DNA of 44,721 nt from Oscillospiraceae bacterium (lineage in GTDB: Bacteria; Bacillota; Clostridia; Oscillospirales; Ruminococcaceae), in contig JAFTQJ010000085.1 of the NCBI GenBank assembly GCA_017462785.1, positions 1-44,721 of the forward strand, read 5' to 3'. Numbering within the stretch: position 1 is the first letter of the stretch; each line of letters begins with the position of its first letter. The notes under the pieces were generated by a model. That model saw nothing but the letters and a program-made list of their open reading frames with translations, was not told the DNA's origin and did not search any database. Positions 7,424 through 44,165 of this stretch are shown here, piece by piece. Both the position numbers and the translations under genes were made by a program.

Positions 7424-8089
7424 ATCATTCCGATGCTGATACGCATAAACAGAAGTAATCACAAAAACTGCCATCAGAATGACCATGAAGATGATCAGCA
7501 GCCATTCCGGTGAGAGTCCGGCGATCATTGCAATCACGTCAATGAGAACCAGCAGGAATCCGGCAATGACGAATACCTTGCCGCCGAACCGATGCGTCAG
7601 TTTCCAGCACTGTTCGTTGTTCAGCGTCCATGAGATCTTGATGCCGAGGGTTTTGTTCGGTGTGATGGTCGGGAAGAAATTGCCCATGGCAATGAACAGC
7701 AGCCCGAATGCAAGGATCAGCAGGTATCCCATATGCGGCATATGCTCCATTTTTGCACCGATCACCGCTCCGCCCTGTATCGACCAAAGCAGAAAGATGT
7801 TTACACAGATGAAAAATATCGTAAGAATCAGCATCGTGATCTGGAGGGGCTTGCGGTTCGGATAATCCTTTTTGCGAAGCTTCAGCTCCAGCAGAATTCC
7901 GAGTGATACCAGCAGCGGCAGGAACGCCGGAACCAGCATCGTCCATTTCGAACCGACAGCATCCACCTTCCAATTCACATCAAAATGCGTCGGGACAGTA
8001 TCCGGCAGCGTGGGAATGTAAATGAGCGTTGCAATCAGATTGAGGATGGATAATACAAAGCTGATGATCATAGGTTTATTGTTCTTCAT
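7421..8089 (-). CDS. SdpI-family (DUF1648) membrane protein
   Basis: A 222-residue polytopic protein with an N-terminal DUF1648 region (LPDTVPTHFDVNWKVD, about 28-43) and a C-terminal SdpI-type region (FPTITPNKTLGIKISWTLNNE then TEQ-like WKLTHRFGGK). In Bacillus subtilis SdpI gives immunity to the toxin SdpC and sequesters its ArsR-type repressor SdpR. AGGAGG lies 6 bp before ATG 8089, and the gene overlaps the arsR gene by 14 bp. No sdpC-like toxin gene is visible here. Immunity or signal sensing is an inference from the family and from the adjacent ArsR gene. Confidence 0.9.
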   Translation of the reverse strand: MKNNKPMIISFVLSILNLIATLIYIPTLPDTVPTHFDVNWKVDAVGSKWTMLVPAFLPLLVSLGILLELKLRKKDYPNRKPLQITMLILTIFFICVNIFLLWSIQGGAVIGAKMEHMPHMGYLLILAFGLLFIAMGNFFPTITPNKTLGIKISWTLNNEQCWKLTHRFGGKVFVIAGFLLVLIDVIAMIAGLSPEWLLIIFMVILMAVFVITSVYAYQHRND

Positions 8090-20128: not shown

Positions 20129-21109
20129 ATGAAAAAAGGAGTGACACCTATGGCAGAAAAGTTTACCATAGCACTGAAAAAAATCATTGATGAATTCAAG
20201 CTTGAAGTCATCTATATGCCGAGGGATCCCGAGGAGATCATGATCGACGAAAATGATGTCAACCGTCCGGGACTTCAGCTGATGGGCTTCTATGAGTACT
20301 TCAATCCGGAGCGAATCCAGATCATCGGCAAGATGGAATTCGCCTACCTGTCCACCGTGGATGAAAAGACCCGTTACGAGCGTCTGGAACTGCTGATCTC
20401 CCAGAAGCTGCCGGCACTTGTCATCACCCGTGAGCTGCCGTATTTCTCTGAGATGCTGGAGCTTGCAAGAAAGTATGAAATGCCGCTTCTGAGAAGCAAG
20501 GAGAGCACCTCCAATTTCATGTCCGGTCTGATCGCTTTCCTGAACCTGAACCTTGCCCCCCGCATCACACGCCACGGCGTTCTGATCGAGATCTATGGTG
20601 AGGGCGTATTCATCACCGGCGAAAGCGGTGTCGGCAAGAGCGAAACCGCCATTGAGCTGGTAAAGCGTGGTCACCGTCTGATTGCGGACGATGCGGTCGA
20701 GATCCGCAAGGTTTCCAACATCAGTCTGGTCGGCAGCTCTCCGGACAATATCCGCCACTTCATGGAACTGCGTGGCATCGGCATCATCAATGCACGCCGC
20801 CTGTTCGGTATGGGTGCGGTCAAGCTGACGGAGAAGATCAGCCTCGTTGTCGAAATGGAGCTATGGAATCCGGAGAAGATCTACGACCGTATGGGCATGG
20901 ATACACAGTATGTTTCCCTGCTCGGTGTCAAGGTGCCGTCCCTGACCATTCCTGTCAAGCCCGGCAGAAACCTTGCAGTCATTTTGGAGGTTGCAGCAAT
21001 GAACAACCGTCAGAAGGAAATGGGATACAATGCAGGTGCAGAACTGATGAACCGTCTGGGTATGCAGATGGACACCACCGAATCCATCAAAAATTACGAC
21101 GAATTCTGA
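20129..21109 (+). CDS. hprK: HPr kinase/phosphorylase
   Basis: HprK phosphorylates HPr on Ser46 and reverses this, setting carbon catabolite control in Firmicutes. The 326-residue protein has the Walker A GESGVGKS (164-171), catalytic H149 in TRHGVLIE, acidic pair D187-D188 in HRLIADDAV, and the family signature ELRGIGIIN (213-221). ATG 20129 has GGAGG 7 bp upstream; ATG 20150 (MAEKFTI) has AAGGAG upstream and is a possible alternative. First of the conserved hprK-murB-rapZ-whiA-dnaE set. Cytoplasmic hexamer in the family. Confidence 0.97.
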   Translation: MKKGVTPMAEKFTIALKKIIDEFKLEVIYMPRDPEEIMIDENDVNRPGLQLMGFYEYFNPERIQIIGKMEFAYLSTVDEKTRYERLELLISQKLPALVITRELPYFSEMLELARKYEMPLLRSKESTSNFMSGLIAFLNLNLAPRITRHGVLIEIYGEGVFITGESGVGKSETAIELVKRGHRLIADDAVEIRKVSNISLVGSSPDNIRHFMELRGIGIINARRLFGMGAVKLTEKISLVVEMELWNPEKIYDRMGMDTQYVSLLGVKVPSLTIPVKPGRNLAVILEVAAMNNRQKEMGYNAGAELMNRLGMQMDTTESIKNYDEF

Positions 21110-36145: not shown

Positions 36146-36189
36146 TTTAACAGCGGGTTTTCCCGTTAGTCTACGCAATGAGGTGTACT

Positions 36190-37728
36190 ATGATCGAAAT
36201 CAGGAAATACAGAGGTCACATCCGCAACTGGCAGGCACTCTGCGAAGAGCTTGGCATTGATGCCGGACTTTCCAGAGAAGCCCGTGAAGCGGAGATCCTG
36301 ACCAAAGCCTATGAAGCATGGGGAACGGAAATGGCGAACCACATGCACGGCATGTTCGCATTCGCCCTCTGGGATACGGATGTACAGAAGCTTGTCTGCA
36401 TCCGTGACCAGTTCGGCACAAAGCCGTTCTATTATTATCTGACCGCCGGCGGCGAGCTGTTGTACGGCACGATGGTGCGTGAAATTCTCAGTCAGGATGG
36501 ATTTGTCAAGGAGCTGAACGAAGAACAGCTCCAGATCTACATGAGCCTGACCTATCCGGCAGGGGAGGACACCTTCTTCAAGGGAATGAAAAAGCTCATG
36601 CCGGGCTGCTGTCTGGTTTGGCAGAACGGTGCAATTTCTATCACCCGTTACTGGAAGCCTGAGTTCCATGCGGATGAAACCAAGACGCTGGACGAGTGGG
36701 CGGATGAGATCCATTCCACTGTTGCACAGATGATGGAAGAGGTCAAGACACCCGATGAAACGGCGTATTCCTTCCTTTCCGGCGGCGTGGATTCTTCCTA
36801 TGTGCTTGCCATGTCCGATGTACAGATGTCCGCTTCCTGCGGCTATGATGATGAACGTTTCGACGAATCCGGACTTGCAAAGCAGACTGCCGATATTCTG
36901 GAGCGTGACAACAGCAGATGTCTGGTAACTCCTGAGGACTATTTTGCAGTGGTGCCCTATGTGATGTACAATATGGAACAGCCTTTGGGTGATGCGTCCG
37001 CAATTGCATTTGCGATCGCTTGCCGTGAAACTGCAAAGCAGAGCAAGCTCTGCTATTCCGGCGAGGGTGCGGATGAATTCTTCGGCGGCTACAACATGTA
37101 CCGCAATGCGGAACGCTACGGCGAAAACCTCAAAACCTTCTATGTCGGCAACACCAACATCATGAAGGAGGAGGAAAAGCAGCGTATCCTGAAGCACTAC
37201 AATCCCGATGTGCTCCCGATCAAGCTGGTTGAGCATATCTATGAGGAAACAGAGGGTCTGGATCCGCTGACCAAGATGTCCGCTGTGGACATTCAGATCT
37301 GGCTGGAGGGTGACATCTACCTGAACGTTGATAAGATGAGCACTGCCGCAGGGCTTGAGATCCGCATGCCTCTGACGGATAGACGCATTTTCGGCATTGC
37401 TTCCCGCATGCCCTCCCGTTTCAAGGTGAATGAGGAGCAGAACAAGGTCGCATTCCGTACCGCAGCCGCAAAGGTGCTGCCGGAGGAGATCGCATTCCGC
37501 AAGAAGCTCGGTTTTATCGTACCCATCCGCATCTGGCTGGCGGATGAACGCTACAATCAGGATGTACAGCGTCTGCTGTTCAGCGAGATTGCAGAGAAAT
37601 TCTTCCATATGGAGGAGCTTCGCAGCATCTGGGAAGAGTACATCGGCGGCAACTCCGACAACTGGAGAAAGGTCTGGATGATCTACACTTTCCTTGTATG
37701 GTATGAAGAATATTTTGTGAAGAGATAA
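36190..37728 (+). CDS. Asparagine synthetase AsnB-like protein with a truncated, Cys-less glutaminase domain
   Basis: A 512-residue protein whose synthetase half is complete: ATP site FLSGGVDSS (195-203), YSGEGADEFFGGYNMY, and MSTAAGLEIRMPL. The N-terminal Ntn amidohydrolase domain is cut short: no Cys at position 2, no RHRGPD or NGEIYN segments, and the protein joins the AsnB alignment only near NWQALCEELG and FAFALWDTDVQKLVCIRDQFGTKP. It therefore should not hydrolyse glutamine and may use free ammonia, or another amine donor. ATG 36190 has GAGG 6 bp upstream. No upstream coding sequence could supply the missing part. Own promoter and terminator. Confidence 0.9.
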   Translation: MIEIRKYRGHIRNWQALCEELGIDAGLSREAREAEILTKAYEAWGTEMANHMHGMFAFALWDTDVQKLVCIRDQFGTKPFYYYLTAGGELLYGTMVREILSQDGFVKELNEEQLQIYMSLTYPAGEDTFFKGMKKLMPGCCLVWQNGAISITRYWKPEFHADETKTLDEWADEIHSTVAQMMEEVKTPDETAYSFLSGGVDSSYVLAMSDVQMSASCGYDDERFDESGLAKQTADILERDNSRCLVTPEDYFAVVPYVMYNMEQPLGDASAIAFAIACRETAKQSKLCYSGEGADEFFGGYNMYRNAERYGENLKTFYVGNTNIMKEEEKQRILKHYNPDVLPIKLVEHIYEETEGLDPLTKMSAVDIQIWLEGDIYLNVDKMSTAAGLEIRMPLTDRRIFGIASRMPSRFKVNEEQNKVAFRTAAAKVLPEEIAFRKKLGFIVPIRIWLADERYNQDVQRLLFSEIAEKFFHMEELRSIWEEYIGGNSDNWRKVWMIYTFLVWYEEYFVKR

Positions 37729-40205: not shown

Positions 40206-40232
40206 TGCCCCGTATGATGCGGGGCTTTTTTG
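40206..40232 (+). terminator. Terminator of the ABC-F gene
   Basis: GCCCCG / CGGGGC stem around TATGATG, then TTTTTTG, right after the stop codon. Confidence 0.9.
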
Positions 40233-40260: not shown

Positions 40261-40289
40261 TTTACAAACCGCAAAACCTGTGCTATAAT
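40261..40289 (+). promoter_or_regulatory. Sigma-A promoter of the peptide-modification cassette
   Basis: TTTACA (40261-40266), 17 bp spacer, TATAAT (40284-40289). It resembles the rpsO promoter in core and edges (TTTACAAAC, TGTGCTATAATAG). Confidence 0.85.
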
Positions 40290-40323
40290 AGAGGTAGATC
40301 CACGAACGCAAGGAGGTATTGCT

Positions 40324-40479
40324 ATGAAAAAAGAACCCTATATCAGACCGGAAATGGAAATCTGTGAATTTGCAGCAGAGGACATCATTACGACCAGCAG
40401 CGAGCCTTCCCAGCTGACCAACGGCGGTGCGGATGCCGAACCGGAATCCGCTGCCTATGATGAGCTTTTCGGGGAGTGA
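40324..40479 (+). CDS. Small acidic peptide, candidate precursor of a modified peptide
   Basis: A 51-residue peptide starting MKKEPYIRPEME, with AAGGAGG 7 bp upstream of the ATG and a consensus promoter. Residues 1-20 look like a leader (basic start, then YIRPEMEICEFAAED); IITTSS (21-26) is followed by a short acidic tail ending YDELFGE. Small peptides with a K-x-Y-x-x-P start and an ED-I-I-T-T-S segment are common next to PqqD and HprK-like genes in gut bacteria, from memory. One cysteine (C14) and four serines (25, 26, 29, 42) are present. The five following genes are tightly packed. Precursor role is inferred. Confidence 0.72.
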   Translation: MKKEPYIRPEMEICEFAAEDIITTSSEPSQLTNGGADAEPESAAYDELFGE

Positions 40480-40487
40480 CCGGACGC

Positions 40488-41207
40488 ATGACGGGGCTGT
40501 ATCTGCTTGCAGGCATCCGGACTGAGATCACGTCAGTGTATCCCGATGTGCACCGGCTCTGTGCTGATTACAGAACACAGGGAACGCCGGAGCTGTACAT
40601 CCGGACGACACGGACGGAGATTTCTGCTGAACGGCAGCGGACGGAGGCATCACAGCATGCAGGGGACGGCTATCTGGAAACGCTCGCCGTGTACCGGAGG
40701 CTTGCGGAAAAGATGATAGCATTCCGCACAATCCTCATACACAGCTCTGCGATTGGAACGAATGGTACAGCCTATCTCTTTGCGGCAAAAAGCGGTACGG
40801 GCAAATCCACGCACACAAGACTCTGGCGTGAGATGCTCGGGGATGCGGCGGTCATGCTCAATGATGACAAGCCGCTGGTGACGGTCAATGCCGGCGGTGC
40901 CATTGTGCACGGTACGCCTTGGGACGGCAAGCACCGCCTGAGTGCTCCCATCTCTCTCCCGCTGGGCGGTATCTGTTTTCTGGAGCAGGGGATGGGAAAC
41001 CGCATCACGCCGCTGACGGCACGGGAGGCGTTCCCCATGCTTGCTGCACAGACCTACCGACCGGCTGATCCTGCCGGAACCGCAGGGACGCTCCTGCTTC
41101 TGGAACAACTCGCCGGAAGTGTGCCGCTTTATCGGATGCAGTGCAATGTGACACCGGAGGCAGCCGCAATTTCCTATGGAACGATGACGAAAGGACAACG
41201 GATATGA
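40488..41207 (+). CDS. HPr-kinase-like P-loop kinase (RiPP-associated type)
   Basis: A 239-residue protein with the Walker A FAAKSGTGKSTHTRLW (about 97-112), an acidic LNDDKPLV corresponding to the DD pair of HprK, and WDGKHRLSAPISLPLGGICFL. It lacks the N-terminal HprK domain and is distinct from the true hprK at 20129. In lasso-peptide clusters such as that of paeninodin a kinase of this type phosphorylates a precursor serine, so peptide phosphorylation is plausible here. ATG 40488 is chosen; GTG 40476 overlaps the peptide stop and has poor spacing. It overlaps the next gene by ATGA. Confidence 0.85.
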   Translation: MTGLYLLAGIRTEITSVYPDVHRLCADYRTQGTPELYIRTTRTEISAERQRTEASQHAGDGYLETLAVYRRLAEKMIAFRTILIHSSAIGTNGTAYLFAAKSGTGKSTHTRLWREMLGDAAVMLNDDKPLVTVNAGGAIVHGTPWDGKHRLSAPISLPLGGICFLEQGMGNRITPLTAREAFPMLAAQTYRPADPAGTAGTLLLLEQLAGSVPLYRMQCNVTPEAAAISYGTMTKGQRI

Positions 41208-41470
41208 AACTGAAATCGGAGTTTATCACGCACCGGATGGGCGATGAACAGGTGATGGTTGCCGCCGGAACATCGCAGTTCTGCGGCATTGTCCGGAGCA
41301 ACCGAACAGCGGCATTCATTGTGGACTGCCTGAAAACAGAAACAACGGAAGAGGATATCATTGCCGCCATGCTTGCAGCCTTTGATGCACCCGAATCCGT
41401 GGTTGCAGAGGATGTCCGCAGGATCCTTGATACCCTCCGCAGTATCGGTGCACTGGATGCAGAAAAGTAA
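41204..41470 (+). CDS. PqqD-like protein (RiPP recognition element)
   Basis: An 88-residue winged-helix protein with the PqqD pattern: FITHRMGDEQVMVAAG, NRTAAFIVDCLKTETTEEDIIAAML and a final VRRILDTLRSIGALD. PqqD-type domains bind the leader of ribosomally made peptides and present it to modifying enzymes. Start ATGA overlaps the kinase stop; its own end overlaps the peptidase start by 14 bp. Position between the kinase and peptidase fits a leader-binding adaptor. Confidence 0.88.
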   Translation: MKLKSEFITHRMGDEQVMVAAGTSQFCGIVRSNRTAAFIVDCLKTETTEEDIIAAMLAAFDAPESVVAEDVRRILDTLRSIGALDAEK

Positions 41471-41864
41471 TTTTGCCGCCGAACTTGCAGAGCACGGCAG
41501 TCTGGTTTATGTCTGCGAGGGGGACAGCATGCTTCCCTTGCTGCGTGAAAAGCGTGATCTGCTCATCATCAAGCCGGTACAGCGGCGGCTCAGACGCTTT
41601 GAAATACCGCTGTACCGGCGTGACAGCGGTCAATACGTCCTGCACCGTGTTCTGCGTGTGCGGAAAAAGGATTATATCCTCTGTGGTGACAACCGTCTGC
41701 GGATGGAATGCGGCATCACGGATGCACAGATCCTCGGCGTTCTGACGGCGGTCGTAAGGGACGGAAAGGAATATCCGCTTTCCGGATGGCGGTACTGGCT
41801 GTACGTTTACGCATACTGCGGTCCGAAAAGTCTGCTTGGTTTGCTGCTCTGTAAGGAGGTGTAA
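41457..41864 (+). CDS. S24/S26-family (signal-peptidase-like) protease
   Basis: A 135-residue protein with the nucleophile motif GDSMLPLL (about 22-29) and YVLHRVLRV, where the general base is His instead of the Lys of bacterial signal peptidase I, as in SipW/ER-type enzymes and S24/S26 peptidases; CGDNRLRMECG follows. There is no N-terminal membrane anchor; the only hydrophobic part is near the C-terminus (WRYWLYVYAYCGPKSLLGLLLC). It may remove the leader of the 40324 peptide. Start ATG 41457 lies inside the PqqD gene and has only a weak Shine-Dalgarno. Confidence 0.85.
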   Translation: MQKSNFAAELAEHGSLVYVCEGDSMLPLLREKRDLLIIKPVQRRLRRFEIPLYRRDSGQYVLHRVLRVRKKDYILCGDNRLRMECGITDAQILGVLTAVVRDGKEYPLSGWRYWLYVYAYCGPKSLLGLLLCKEV

Positions 41865-41868
41865 TGCC

Positions 41869-43020
41869 ATGAAACAGGCAGGAGCTGACCTGATCTGGCT
41901 TTGCCGCTGTGCACTGCATGGGACTGTTCCTGAACCCGAACGGATACAGAAAACAGACCTTGCAAAGCTCTGGGAAATGGCACGTTTTCACAGCCTGACT
42001 GCATTGACGGCGGCGGTGCTGCTCAAAGCAGGCGTACAGCTTCCCTCCGAATGGACGGAAGCTCGCTGGAAATCCGTGCGGAAGAATCTGCTCCTTGACG
42101 CAGAACGTGCAGAAATCGAAGCCTTTCTCGAAGAAAACAACATCCCCTTTGCACCCCTCAAGGGCATCCTGCTGAAAGAGCTGTACCCCGAAGCCGGCAT
42201 GCGGGAAATGGCGGATCAGGATATGCTCTGCGACAGCAGAGGACGGGAAAAGCTTGCGGCGTTCATGGAAAAACGGGGTTACAGCGGTTCCTGCATCGGC
42301 AGGGGCAACCACGACATTTTCAAAAAGCCGCCGGTTTACCATTTTGAAATGCATACAGCACTCTTTGGTACACACCAGAATCCGCAGTTTGCGGAGTATT
42401 TTCGTAAAATGGAGGAAAACCTGCTGCGATCGGGCAGCGGATGCAGAAAGTGGCTTTCCGATGAGGAGCATTATCTCTATCTGACCGCCCACGCCTTCCG
42501 CCACCATGCGGAGGGCGGCACGGGGGTGCGGACGTTGCTCGACTTTTATCTCTATCTGCAAAATTATGGTGCGTTCATGAACTGGGAGGAGCTGTCCGCT
42601 GGACTGGATGAGCTGGGGCTGACGGAGTACGAAGCAACGCTCCGCACACTTGCACATCAGCTTTTCGCAGGGGAAGGGGAGCAAGGCCTGACGGACAAGC
42701 AGCGTGAGATGCTGGAATATTGTCTGTTTTCAGGGACGTTCGGCACAACTGCACATCGGGTGCAAAAGGCAGGGAAATGGGCATATCTCCGGCAAAGGCT
42801 GTTTCCGGATATGGCGTTCTATCGGGAATTCTACCCGTTTTTCTGCCGGCACTGGCTTCTGCTTCCGATCGCATGGCTGATACGGCTTTTCCGTGCCGTT
42901 TTGATTCGGCGTAACCATCTCAAAAAAGAATTGAATGCAATTCTGAAAAAACATAACAGGAGGAACAATCATGATCAAGCACATCATTCTCTGGACACTG
43001 AAAGAGGAATTCACAGCTGA
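41869..43020 (+). CDS. Nucleotidyltransferase-fold protein (NTP_transf_5 type)
   Basis: A 383-residue protein with FAPLKGILLKELYPE (about 95-109), MADQDMLCD (the D-x-D-type metal motif) and HDIFKKPPVYHFEMH, a pattern of the uncharacterised nucleotidyltransferase family seen in lasso-peptide and other peptide clusters. The C-terminal part is helical with a hydrophobic segment FFCRHWLLLPIAWLIRLF. AAGGAGG lies 9 bp before ATG 41869. The frame runs 50 bp into the next gene, so its last 17 residues may be of little importance. It may transfer a nucleotide to the peptide; this is inference. Confidence 0.83.
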   Translation: MKQAGADLIWLCRCALHGTVPEPERIQKTDLAKLWEMARFHSLTALTAAVLLKAGVQLPSEWTEARWKSVRKNLLLDAERAEIEAFLEENNIPFAPLKGILLKELYPEAGMREMADQDMLCDSRGREKLAAFMEKRGYSGSCIGRGNHDIFKKPPVYHFEMHTALFGTHQNPQFAEYFRKMEENLLRSGSGCRKWLSDEEHYLYLTAHAFRHHAEGGTGVRTLLDFYLYLQNYGAFMNWEELSAGLDELGLTEYEATLRTLAHQLFAGEGEQGLTDKQREMLEYCLFSGTFGTTAHRVQKAGKWAYLRQRLFPDMAFYREFYPFFCRHWLLLPIAWLIRLFRAVLIRRNHLKKELNAILKKHNRRNNHDQAHHSLDTERGIHS

Positions 43021-43273
43021 GGAAAAGGAAACCATCAAACGGGGCATCAAAGAAGGACTGGAGGGACTCGCAGGCGTGATTCCGGGACTGCTCGAAATCC
43101 GTGTGAATACCGGCAGACTTCCAAGCTCCAACGCCGATCTGATGCTGGATTCGACCTTTGAGAGCGTGGAGGCTCTGAAAGCCTATGCAGTGCATCCTGC
43201 ACATGTGGAGGTTGCGGACACAAAGGTCAGACCCTACACGGCCCTGAGAAGCTGTCTGGATTTCGAGGTGTAA
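42971..43273 (+). CDS. Dabb-family (stress-responsive alpha/beta barrel) protein
   Basis: A 100-residue single-domain protein of ferredoxin-like fold: MIKHIILWTLKEEF, IPGLLEIRVNTG, LDSTFESVEALKAYAVHPAHVEV and a C-terminal strand. Dabb proteins form dimers; most have no defined function. AGGAGG lies 7 bp before the ATG, inside the end of the nucleotidyltransferase gene (50 bp overlap). Four bases separate it from the expansin gene. It may be a passenger rather than part of the peptide cassette. Confidence 0.88.
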   Translation: MIKHIILWTLKEEFTAEEKETIKRGIKEGLEGLAGVIPGLLEIRVNTGRLPSSNADLMLDSTFESVEALKAYAVHPAHVEVADTKVRPYTALRSCLDFEV

Positions 43274-43277
43274 TACG

Positions 43278-44123
43278 ATGAATCGGCGTATCATCGCAGG
43301 AGCTGCTGCGGCTTGCCTTGGAATCTGTGCATTCACTGCTGTGTCCGCATCGGCGGATGCCGGAACCATCCGTGCCTTGCAGGATTTTCTGCTGTGCACG
43401 AGCCGTTCCATGCCGGAAAATGCCGACCTGACGGCGGACGGCCGTGTGGATGCTTTTGATCTCTGTGTGATGAAGCGGAAAGCACAGCCAGTGCAGGGTG
43501 TGGAGAAATTAGAAGAGAAGGGGACTGTACACAGCGGATATGCAACATTCTACGGAGGCGGTTACGAGGGCGGCTGTGCCATGCTCGATCCGATCTCGAA
43601 GGAGGATTATTGGATCACCGCCATGAATATTGTGGACTACAGCAACGCTCAGCTCGCCGGAGCCTATCTTGAGGTGACGGGTGAGCTTGGAACGATCCGT
43701 GTGCTTGTGACCGATCTTCTGCCGGAGGGGCAGAAGGGGGATCTGGATCTCTATGTGGACGCTTTCCCTTTGATCGCTCCGGCGGAAAAGGGAAAGGTGC
43801 CTGTAACATGGAAGATCATCCCCCTCGACAGTGCAGAGGACGCACCGGTTTCCTACAAGTATAAGGAGGGCACGACCGAATTCTGGTGCGGTGTGCAGGT
43901 GAGAAACCACCGCTATCCCATCATGAAGCTGGAATACCTTGATGCTTCGGGCGAATTCGTGGAGATCCCCAGACGCAACTACAACTATTTTGAGAGTGAC
44001 AGTATGGGTGCGGGTCCGTTCACGTTCCGGATCACGGACATCTACGGCTCCGTCATCATTGATGAAAACATCCCCCTGACACCGGACGAGATCCAGCAGG
44101 GACATGTACAATTTCCGAAATAA
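43278..44123 (+). CDS. Secreted expansin (EXLX1/YoaJ-like) with an N-terminal half-dockerin
   Basis: A 281-residue secreted protein that should loosen plant cell walls without hydrolysis. Signal peptide about 1-27 (AAACLGICAFTAVSASA). Residues 29-68 carry a dockerin helix (IRALQDFLL) and one calcium loop D50-LTA-D54-G-RV-D58-AF-D61 followed by LCVMKRK; the first calcium loop is missing. The expansin double-psi barrel follows (HSGYATFYGGG, TDLLPEGQKGDLDL with the conserved D146), then a CBM63-like domain very like YoaJ (VQVRNHRYPIMKLEY, YNYF, GHVQFPK), with F202-W203 where YoaJ has two tryptophans. It would dock on cell-surface cohesins. Confidence 0.92.
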   Translation: MNRRIIAGAAAACLGICAFTAVSASADAGTIRALQDFLLCTSRSMPENADLTADGRVDAFDLCVMKRKAQPVQGVEKLEEKGTVHSGYATFYGGGYEGGCAMLDPISKEDYWITAMNIVDYSNAQLAGAYLEVTGELGTIRVLVTDLLPEGQKGDLDLYVDAFPLIAPAEKGKVPVTWKIIPLDSAEDAPVSYKYKEGTTEFWCGVQVRNHRYPIMKLEYLDASGEFVEIPRRNYNYFESDSMGAGPFTFRITDIYGSVIIDENIPLTPDEIQQGHVQFPK

Positions 44124-44128
44124 TCCTG

Positions 44129-44165
44129 AATGCTGCTGCACGAAAAGTGCAGCAGCATTTTTTTG
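44129..44165 (+). terminator. Terminator of the expansin gene
   Basis: AATGCTGCTGCAC, loop GAAAA, GTGCAGCAGCATT, then TTTTTT. Stem nearly the same as at 37732. Confidence 0.93.

Follow-up and report, generated by a model that had tools for sequence, protein, structure and literature searches.

A kinase, PqqD and S26 peptidase gene set recurs in gut Clostridia together with a dispersed family of leader-tagged peptides

Introduction

Lasso peptide clusters that encode a PqqD-type protein and a kinase are the closest described systems to the locus analysed here, a group of five genes at positions 40,324 to 43,020 of a 44,721-nucleotide contig from an Oscillospiraceae bacterium (JAFTQJ010000085.1; this whole stretch is called the window), which encode a short peptide, an HprK-like kinase, a PqqD-family protein, an S26 peptidase and a nucleotidyltransferase. 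The PqqD-type protein PadeB1 binds the lasso leader with an affinity in the nanomolar range and delivers it to the leader protease (PMC5067487). The substrate of PadeK is the precursor, PsmN has been linked to a hexose on the phosphorylated Ser, and the lasso kinases share a conserved His-Lys-Asp-Asp set (PMC9266682). In the bsf cluster, the leader carries Tyr at -17, Pro at -14 and Leu at -12, the residue at -2 is an Ile that matters, and BsfK phosphorylates Ser3 of BsfA in a reaction that the PqqD-like BsfB1 speeds up (PMC10368454). Rumen lasso clusters have also been mentioned with HPr kinase, PqqD or nucleotidyltransferase genes (PMC7533575, PMC13289728).

Comparative analysis of the window indicates that its gene set is part of a real and conserved system recurring across gut Clostridia, whose chemistry we infer. 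The open PMC literature, with subscription papers mostly outside its scope, yielded no paper that we recognised as describing a kinase, PqqD and S26 set with dispersed peptides, and we found no published description of the system. We consider it fairly probable that these genes act as the hub of a system that matures many peptide substrates, in which PqqD-guided Ser phosphorylation would be combined with leader removal by the S26 enzyme.

Results

The peptide has a conserved leader and junction and a variable tail

The window peptide carries a YIRPEM recognition motif, a DIITTS junction and the tail SEPSQLTNGGADAEPESAAYDELFGE. We collected 95 related peptides over the loci (one of them a fragment) and 56 in the class loci; 150 distinct peptides over all loci are longer than 25 residues. 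Among the 145 with a leader Tyr, the Tyr-to-Ser spacing is 19 in 138. Counted from this Tyr, Phe occupies +10 in 136 peptides, Asp +14 in 131, Val or Ile +15 in 139, Ile +16 in 121 and Ser +19 in 138. A Pro lies three residues past the Tyr in 112, followed two residues further on by M, L, A, I or V; since the Tyr was fixed by selection and the Pro favoured by the search patterns, neither frequency is free of selection. The tails vary and measure from 5 to 44 residues (one of 92). About one in seven tails (21 of the 145 anchored on Tyr, or 24 of 147 by an earlier pattern) contains no Ser or Thr at all, and the junction Ser is the sole near-universal hydroxyl in the peptides.

The alignments indicate that a peptide family with a conserved leader, an I(T)xS junction and a variable tail is real, as the sequence-only reading had expected from the window peptide. 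Judged by sequence, the locus combines what is asked of a ribosomally synthesized and post-translationally modified peptide (RiPP): an encoded precursor, a conserved leader, a variable core and adjoining modification genes. That reading had also drawn a parallel to the phosphorylated Ser of paeninodin. Its Ser finds a counterpart at the junction and none at the C-terminus, where just 5 of the 150 distinct peptides end in Ser and the window peptide ends in Glu; paeninodin-like phosphorylation of a C-terminal Ser does not fit. In one locus (L040:7454-7996), a lipoprotein open reading frame (ORF) continues without a frame change into the coding sequence of a leader-tagged peptide, whose inner ATG lies at 7865, so that lipoprotein and peptide have one tail in common.

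Peptide and kinase occur in the same genomes

In the window's family (297 genomes), 47 genomes carry the kinase, 33 the peptide and 30 both (Fisher 1e-25, ignoring common descent, as in the tests that follow). In the class set (391 genomes), the kinase was detected in 110 and the peptide in 37, all 37 with the kinase (Fisher 2.5e-23; 6e-36 when restricted to the 61 genomes classed as having a full-length kinase match). The peptide profile A1 was built from 18 peptides, all from loci of the window's own family, and therefore the 36 other class genomes with a peptide are independent of it. Within the window's genus, four of the five sampled genomes carry both and one carries neither. By comparison of genomes, the peptide depends on the kinase at the genome level.

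The peptides are scattered. Peptide matches at E 0.001 numbered 14 in G313, 15 in G312, 10 in G347 and 22 in G511, four genomes picked for their many matches; they were spread over many contigs, with one or two kinases per genome. The genes at the locus thus appear to be a hub that serves peptides encoded in many places of the genome, and the self-contained five-gene cassette first proposed from the window has to be given up, the peptides lying mostly behind genes for secreted proteins.

Kinase, PqqD and S26 genes form the conserved core

Neighbourhoods were compared in the best 80 of at least 571 kinase relatives (at least 596 candidate stretches), obtained by a kinase-profile scan of named genome contigs; each stretch covered up to 10 kb on either side, and many were ended by contig edges. 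PqqD genes are present in 66 of the 80 stretches and S26 genes in 61; 36 stretches have a nucleotidyltransferase gene, 34 an ABC exporter, 31 a related peptide and 7 radical SAM proteins. Fifteen cassettes of other families, drawn from 14 peptide-carrying genomes, include PqqD in all 15, S26 in 13, the exporter in six and the nucleotidyltransferase in five. Because of these counts, we assign kinase, PqqD and S26 to the core on gene content, with the exporter and the nucleotidyltransferase as optional parts. The sequence-only reading, which named an exporter among the missing parts, passes the refuting check that it set itself: the genes do co-occur in other genomes and the peptide family is real, although a peptide is near the kinase in no more than 31 of the 80 stretches. 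Two corrections apply, the nucleotidyltransferase being optional and the exporter, absent from the window locus, belonging to many related ones.

This exporter (ABC_membrane plus ABC_tran by Pfam) lies between the S26 and nucleotidyltransferase genes in several loci. In the window genome (88% complete), the best matches to the c4 exporter of L031 are ordinary-looking ABC proteins, the top three 25-27% identical, and none was assigned as the exporter. The parts lie several kb apart in a few of the 80 stretches (e.g. L139 and L144). By title, the stretches come mostly from uncultured gut or rumen Clostridia; a few records bear the names Bacteroidales, Synergistaceae or actinobacteria, where binning errors are possible. 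The 80 also include Kandleria vitulina DSM 20405 and Ruminococcaceae bacterium AB4001. Gene clusters that recur up to 6 kb from the kinase in at least three loci of the window's family comprise, by Pfam on members, secreted proteins, radical SAM proteins and ordinary ABC-transporter proteins besides the system's own genes. In four loci (L074, L075, L077 and L078), the kinase, PqqD and S26 set has between one and three radical SAM proteins and Cys-rich members of the peptide family for neighbours; the proteins of L074, L075 and L078 are Radical_SAM by Pfam, with no SPASM match, and the four loci are perhaps a thioether-type branch.

The identities given to the five products in the sequence-only reading were upheld by Pfam, alignments and a kinase model. 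The PqqD protein matches PF05402 at E 5e-14 (lasso_PqqD_Strm gives 32.9 bits against a cut-off of 70) and the nucleotidyltransferase matches NTP_transf_5 (PF14907) at E 8e-45. The S26-like protein was weak in single-sequence family search (S26/S24 E 0.037; NiSOD-protease model E 0.0022). In the PDB, its profile finds SPase I and SEC11A/C (E 7e-4 to 5e-3); all 22 aligned sequences keep Ser24 and His63, and the core carries GDSM, HR and GDN boxes. By this catalytic pair and these boxes, its sequence places it in the S26 signal peptidase family. The kinase gave no Pfam match at 0.1 in a single-sequence search and no PDB match by sequence; it matches the ScmC model at 1e-7, far under that model's cut-off. 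Its predicted structure (pLDDT 93.5) matches PEPCK and HprK/P structures, the Walker A motif is preserved in the alignment, and H89, K110 and D131 are invariant in 17 of 17 sequences and D130 in 15 of 17. By our own residue assignment, H89, K110, D130 and D131 correspond in the alignment to the His-Lys-Asp-Asp set of lasso kinases. The weak S26 and kinase family calls are settled because alignments and the structure model complement them, the predicted fold of the kinase being that of HprK/PEPCK.

Dispersed peptides mostly follow genes for secreted proteins

Among 20 family stretches around peptides encoded in trans, 18 have a large or cut-off same-strand ORF upstream (L187 and L199 have none); a signal sequence was recognised by eye in 13 of the 18, the rest being cut or of uncertain start. 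In the class loci, an ORF of at least 60 codons ends just upstream of the peptide in 48 of 56, at a gap of 9-48 nt in 45 and with an overlap of at most 4 nt in three. Thirteen of these 48 ORFs are cut at an edge. A crude rule assigns a signal peptide to 34 of the other 35, which are complete; among all complete ORFs of at least 250 codons in the same loci, upstream ORFs included, it does so for 53 of 107. The N-termini of the upstream proteins in the family vary (BspA-type leucine-rich repeats, transglutaminase, GLUG, beta helix); the L031, L039, L141 and L188 peptides, which share the tail class of the window peptide, lie directly behind secreted transglutaminase-type proteins.

Many upstream proteins in the family share a common C-terminal domain (CTD), with 42 of 48 matches ending within 12 residues of the C-terminus. 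Searched with the CTD profile, 26 of the 297 genomes gave matches; the kinase is present in 21 of these 26 and the peptide likewise in 21. Of the 30 loci obtained from this search, 18 have a peptide directly downstream. This test is partly circular, the profile having been built from loci found through the kinase or the peptide and 10 of the 30 loci (9 positive) being its members; the peptide follows directly in 9 of the 20 loci outside the profile, and in 5 of the 15 that lie in no stretch previously taken by position around a kinase or a peptide encoded in trans. The CTD itself (profile A3, e.g. L050:3666-3974) gives a confident model of beta strands and two helices, with no Pfam family and just weak immunoglobulin-like PDB matches.

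Within each of the four peptide-rich genomes, the similarity of tails follows that of the upstream C-termini (Mantel r 0.63 in G312, n = 11, p 0.0002; 0.95 in G313, n = 9, p 0.0002; 0.69 in G347, n = 8, p 0.005; 0.88 in G511, n = 15, p 0.0002). Without near duplicates, the values are 0.23 (p 0.09), 0.96 (p 0.009), 0.63 (p 0.019) and 0.36 (p 0.005), respectively. Such covariation points to linkage and not to binding, because duplication of the pairs as units would give the same result. In the G312/G347 genus, peptide tails look like the final strands of the protein encoded upstream, best in L284, L277 and L281; the L277 tail AKSYVKVGNGASWGEIYGG, for instance, resembles the upstream protein end AKAFVEIGGKYIWSDSISG. 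Mimicry of the last hairpin of the upstream protein was set aside as a general feature: it would apply to one genus at most (mean z 1.04 and 1.59 for G312/G347 against -0.37 and -0.03 for G313/G511).

A gene for a Thr/Ser-rich lipoprotein lies 3' of the peptide in 15 loci of the family (61 ORFs were selected by pattern, and 24 loci were judged by eye to contain real ones). An ELPxxP-like motif, ELPFVPVE for example, closes 17 lipoprotein ORFs. Within a locus, the peptide tail resembles the lipoprotein tail more than it does after shuffling of the pairs (p 0.0004 for 16 pairs from 15 loci picked by hand; p 0.007 when L067 is left out), as in FGDITWEN and FGSIIWK (L067) or VDPFAG and LLDPFE (L101).

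The window genome gave no CTD match at 1e-6 and one peptide match. On its contig C81 (10044-12038), a secreted protein, SGNH-hydrolase-like by eye and with no peptide behind, ends in a region shared with the c7 transglutaminase proteins (39% over 180 residues). A candidate secreted partner on contig C2 was dropped, the match sitting in a Thr-rich linker.

Organization of the window locus

The features of the locus are collected in Table 1. As the sequence-only reading had it, a promoter-like site precedes five packed or overlapping genes: the kinase and PqqD genes overlap as ATGA, the PqqD and S26 genes by 14 nt, and 4 nt separate the S26 and nucleotidyltransferase genes. The promoter-like site shows 11 of 12 consensus matches. 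The number of promoter-like sites in the region is at chance level (2 against 2.3 in shuffles, standard deviation 1.8), which puts the weight on where this site lies and how good it is. Terminator-like stem-loops number 7 against 3.6 in shuffles (standard deviation 1.9). An AAGGAGG ribosome site lies at 40310-40316, ahead of the peptide ORF. The kinase ORF opens with GTG at 40476, and the ATG at 40488 appears the likelier start because residue 5 is where the alignment sets in for 13 of the 19 best-matching homologues. Given the terminator-like stem-loops at 40207-40225 and 44128-44160, the transcription unit may extend through the Dabb and expansin genes to the latter; the Dabb gene is not a conserved neighbour, being found in one of 41 sources, namely the window.

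Two other window genes are of note. An ordinary HPr kinase/phosphorylase with both Pfam domains is encoded at 20129-21109, separate from the kinase of the locus. An asparagine-synthase-like gene lies 2.6 kb upstream of the locus at 36178-37728; the start of its glutaminase domain is apparently missing, its full-length model match begins at about model position 74, and its asn_synth_AEB score of 271.2 exceeds that model's cut-off (267.1).

Table 1. Features of the peptide-kinase locus and its flanks in the window
Feature	Position	Strand	Basis
Terminator-like stem-loop at end of upstream ABC-F gene	40207..40225	+	Stem-loop scan
Sigma-70-type promoter-like site, TTTACA-17-TATAAT, extended -10	40261..40289	+	Promoter scan
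51-residue peptide ORF	40324..40479	+	ORF list and translation
Conserved peptide segment M1-S25 (Y6, P9, M11, F16, D20, I21, I22, T23, S25)	40324..40398	+	Peptide alignment
Variable tail, LxNGGx...YxELF-like class common to L031, L039, L141, L188	40399..40476	+	Comparison of collected peptides
Kinase, HprK/PEPCK fold (predicted), Walker A SGTGKST, NDDKP	40476..41207	+	Alignment, model, fold match
PqqD-family leader-binding protein (RiPP recognition element, RRE)	41204..41470	+	Pfam/NCBIfam
S26 peptidase, Ser-His type (S24, H63)	41457..41864	+	Profile and alignment
NTP_transf_5 nucleotidyltransferase (R112, D116, D118)	41869..43020	+	Pfam and alignment
Dabb protein, perhaps co-transcribed	42971..43273	+	Pfam
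Secreted EXLX1-type expansin, partial dockerin repeat, perhaps co-transcribed	43278..44123	+	Pfam/NCBIfam
Strong terminator-like stem-loop	44128..44160	+	Stem-loop scan

Discussion

Comparison of genomes shows a gene set, a peptide family, conserved residues, dependence of the peptide on the kinase at the genome level and dispersed substrates beside secreted proteins. In the mechanism that we propose, PqqD would bind the Y-x-x-P-x-(M/L) leader of a short peptide, and the HprK-fold kinase, presented with this substrate, would phosphorylate the near-invariant junction Ser 19 residues past the Tyr. The Ser-His S26 peptidase would cut near the D-V-I-T-x-S junction and free the tail, which a dedicated ABC exporter, encoded in many relatives but not in the window, would carry out. 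The nucleotidyltransferase, where present, might modify the phosphate further, as PsmN does in pseudomycoidin, and the tail would act with the secreted protein encoded beside the peptide. The junction Ser is likely the phosphoacceptor, because it matches the bsf register, is near-invariant and occurs even where the tail has no hydroxyl. The S26 protein is most likely the enzyme that removes the leader, and joint action of the tail with the adjoining secreted protein is likely too.

Several observations weigh against such a maturation hub. The peptide lies near the kinase in just 31 of the 80 stretches, and the window copy, with neither exporter nor upstream secreted gene, may be a compact, reduced form. 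In the family, 3 of the 33 peptide genomes (G177, G198 and G282) have no kinase match; no peptide was found at the thresholds used in 17 of 47 family and 73 of 110 class kinase genomes, and part of the class matches are a longer kinase that aligns only from about residue 70. The cleavage site raises a further point. Signal peptidases follow a -3/-1 rule, and by inspection the junction fits this pattern, with mostly Thr at -3 and Ser at -1. An S26 cut after this Ser would leave the phosphate on the leader, and the two assignments would be incompatible unless the cut precedes the Ser or the phosphate regulates cleavage. The odds that we give to the hub rest on the class-level co-occurrence of peptide and kinase.

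A more specific picture, which we advance tentatively and would not be surprised to see fail, is a genome-wide cell-surface phosphopeptide system, in which one kinase-PqqD-S26 hub would serve up to about 20 different peptides, each behind a large Sec-secreted protein. Outside the cell, the tail would dock on, complete or tether the covarying CTD, and in the window's family the Thr/Ser-rich lipoprotein, whose similar C-terminal tail is ELPF[VI]P, would keep the complex on the membrane. Bacterial surface proteins would then be assembled or anchored by a new route.

Other explanations were weighed. The tails could be secreted signals (pheromones) made by the kinase, the S26 enzyme and the exporter, with the adjoining lipoproteins or secreted proteins as receptors or regulated targets; the short, acidic, exported-looking tails, the dedicated exporter in 34 of the 80 stretches and the many paralogues per genome would suit this idea, which we nevertheless think unlikely, as up to 22 different tails per genome are many for a signal and no regulator appears among the gene clusters shared by at least three window-family loci within 6 kb, where rarer regulators are possible. 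That the peptides are antimicrobial RiPPs (bacteriocins), paired with secreted proteins incidentally, is more doubtful still. Radical SAM proteins in 7 of the 80 stretches (five were tested with Pfam, all Radical_SAM), four of them beside Cys-rich peptides, speak for it. Against an incidental pairing, the peptide lies directly behind a CTD protein in 18 of 30 loci (9 of 20 outside the profile), and almost every complete upstream ORF in the class loci (34 of 35) has a signal peptide by the crude rule.

A lasso pathway with its protease and cyclase elsewhere or lost, in which the peptides would be lasso precursors, is very improbable. The leader motif, its register, PqqD, the kinase and NTP_transf_5 are as in phosphorylated lasso clusters, and an asparagine-synthase-like gene lies upstream in the window. 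However, the lasso B2 protease domain Transglut_core3 (PF13471) had no match in the 88%-complete window genome (relatives were not searched), and phmmer with the window asparagine synthase at E 1e-3 found no homologue in the 142 other stretches, some of them overlapping, a single-sequence query that remote forms could escape. In the lasso register, the window core begins TTSSEPSQL and has neither Gly1 nor an acidic residue at positions 7-9, position +1 is Thr in 113 of 145 peptides, and tails go down to 5-8 residues. We thus reject a lasso cluster at the locus on cyclase, B2 protease and core residues, and the absence of the first two, remarked on in the sequence-only reading, holds for the window genome (protease) and the relatives' loci (cyclase).

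Two candidates for these lasso functions were rejected. The short-looking asparagine synthase at 36178-37728 occurs in the window only among 143 sources, and it is set apart from the peptide by the GtrA and ABC-F genes and a terminator-like site. The c7 secreted transglutaminase matches Transglut_core (PF01841), and PF13471 is not among its Pfam matches.

Hardly to be credited, finally, is the idea that the peptides are cis sensors of expression or secretion of the upstream protein, turned over by the cassette: the 9-48 nt gaps in 45 of 48 cases would suit it, but the window peptide follows its own promoter-like site with no such upstream gene, and for a sensor a phosphoacceptor, an exporter and a C-terminal motif specific to the lineage would be superfluous.

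If a maturation hub is what these genes form, lasso-type leader recognition and Ser phosphorylation would be uncoupled from lasso making and would serve many peptides per genome, with an S26 enzyme in place of the leader protease of lasso clusters. A set of unannotated small genes would gain a testable role, and large secreted rumen and gut proteins (BspA-type repeats, transglutaminases, beta-helix proteins) a new partner.

Comparison with known systems

The pade, psm and bsf lasso clusters share with the present system a PqqD-type B1 protein, an HprK-fold kinase, a YxxPxL leader and, in some, an NTP_transf_5-type protein. They differ in that an S26 peptidase stands here in place of the B2 protease and that many dispersed substrates occur per genome. 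The likeness is closest for the bsf cluster, where Ile at -2 and Ser at +3 have their counterparts in Val or Ile at -2 and Ser at +3 when the Tyr of the present family is set at -17. Paeninodin has a C-terminal Ser as acceptor; for the junction Ser found here, the bsf-type Ser3 is the better parallel.

In the NCBIfam systems HPr-rel-A (TIGR04352, TIGR04353) and SynChlorMet (TIGR04249, ScmC), an HprK-related kinase likewise comes together with a PqqD-related protein. Membership in either was rejected, since the window proteins score far under the curated cut-offs (17.0 bits against 200 for TIGR04352, 16.0 against 35 for TIGR04353 and 31.5 against 125 for TIGR04249). Leader-cutting S26 enzymes such as the Ni-SOD maturation protease (TIGR02754) and the SEC11/SipW type have the same Ser-His core; the window protein scores 18.4 against the TIGR02754 cut-off of 63.25, and its substrate would be a PqqD-type leader. 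Lastly, C39 ABC transporters process and export many leader-tagged double-Gly peptides. Similarly, one processing and export machine would here serve many small leader-tagged peptides per genome; the present system differs in its probable leader recognition by PqqD, its separate S26 protease and a kinase that is part of the core.

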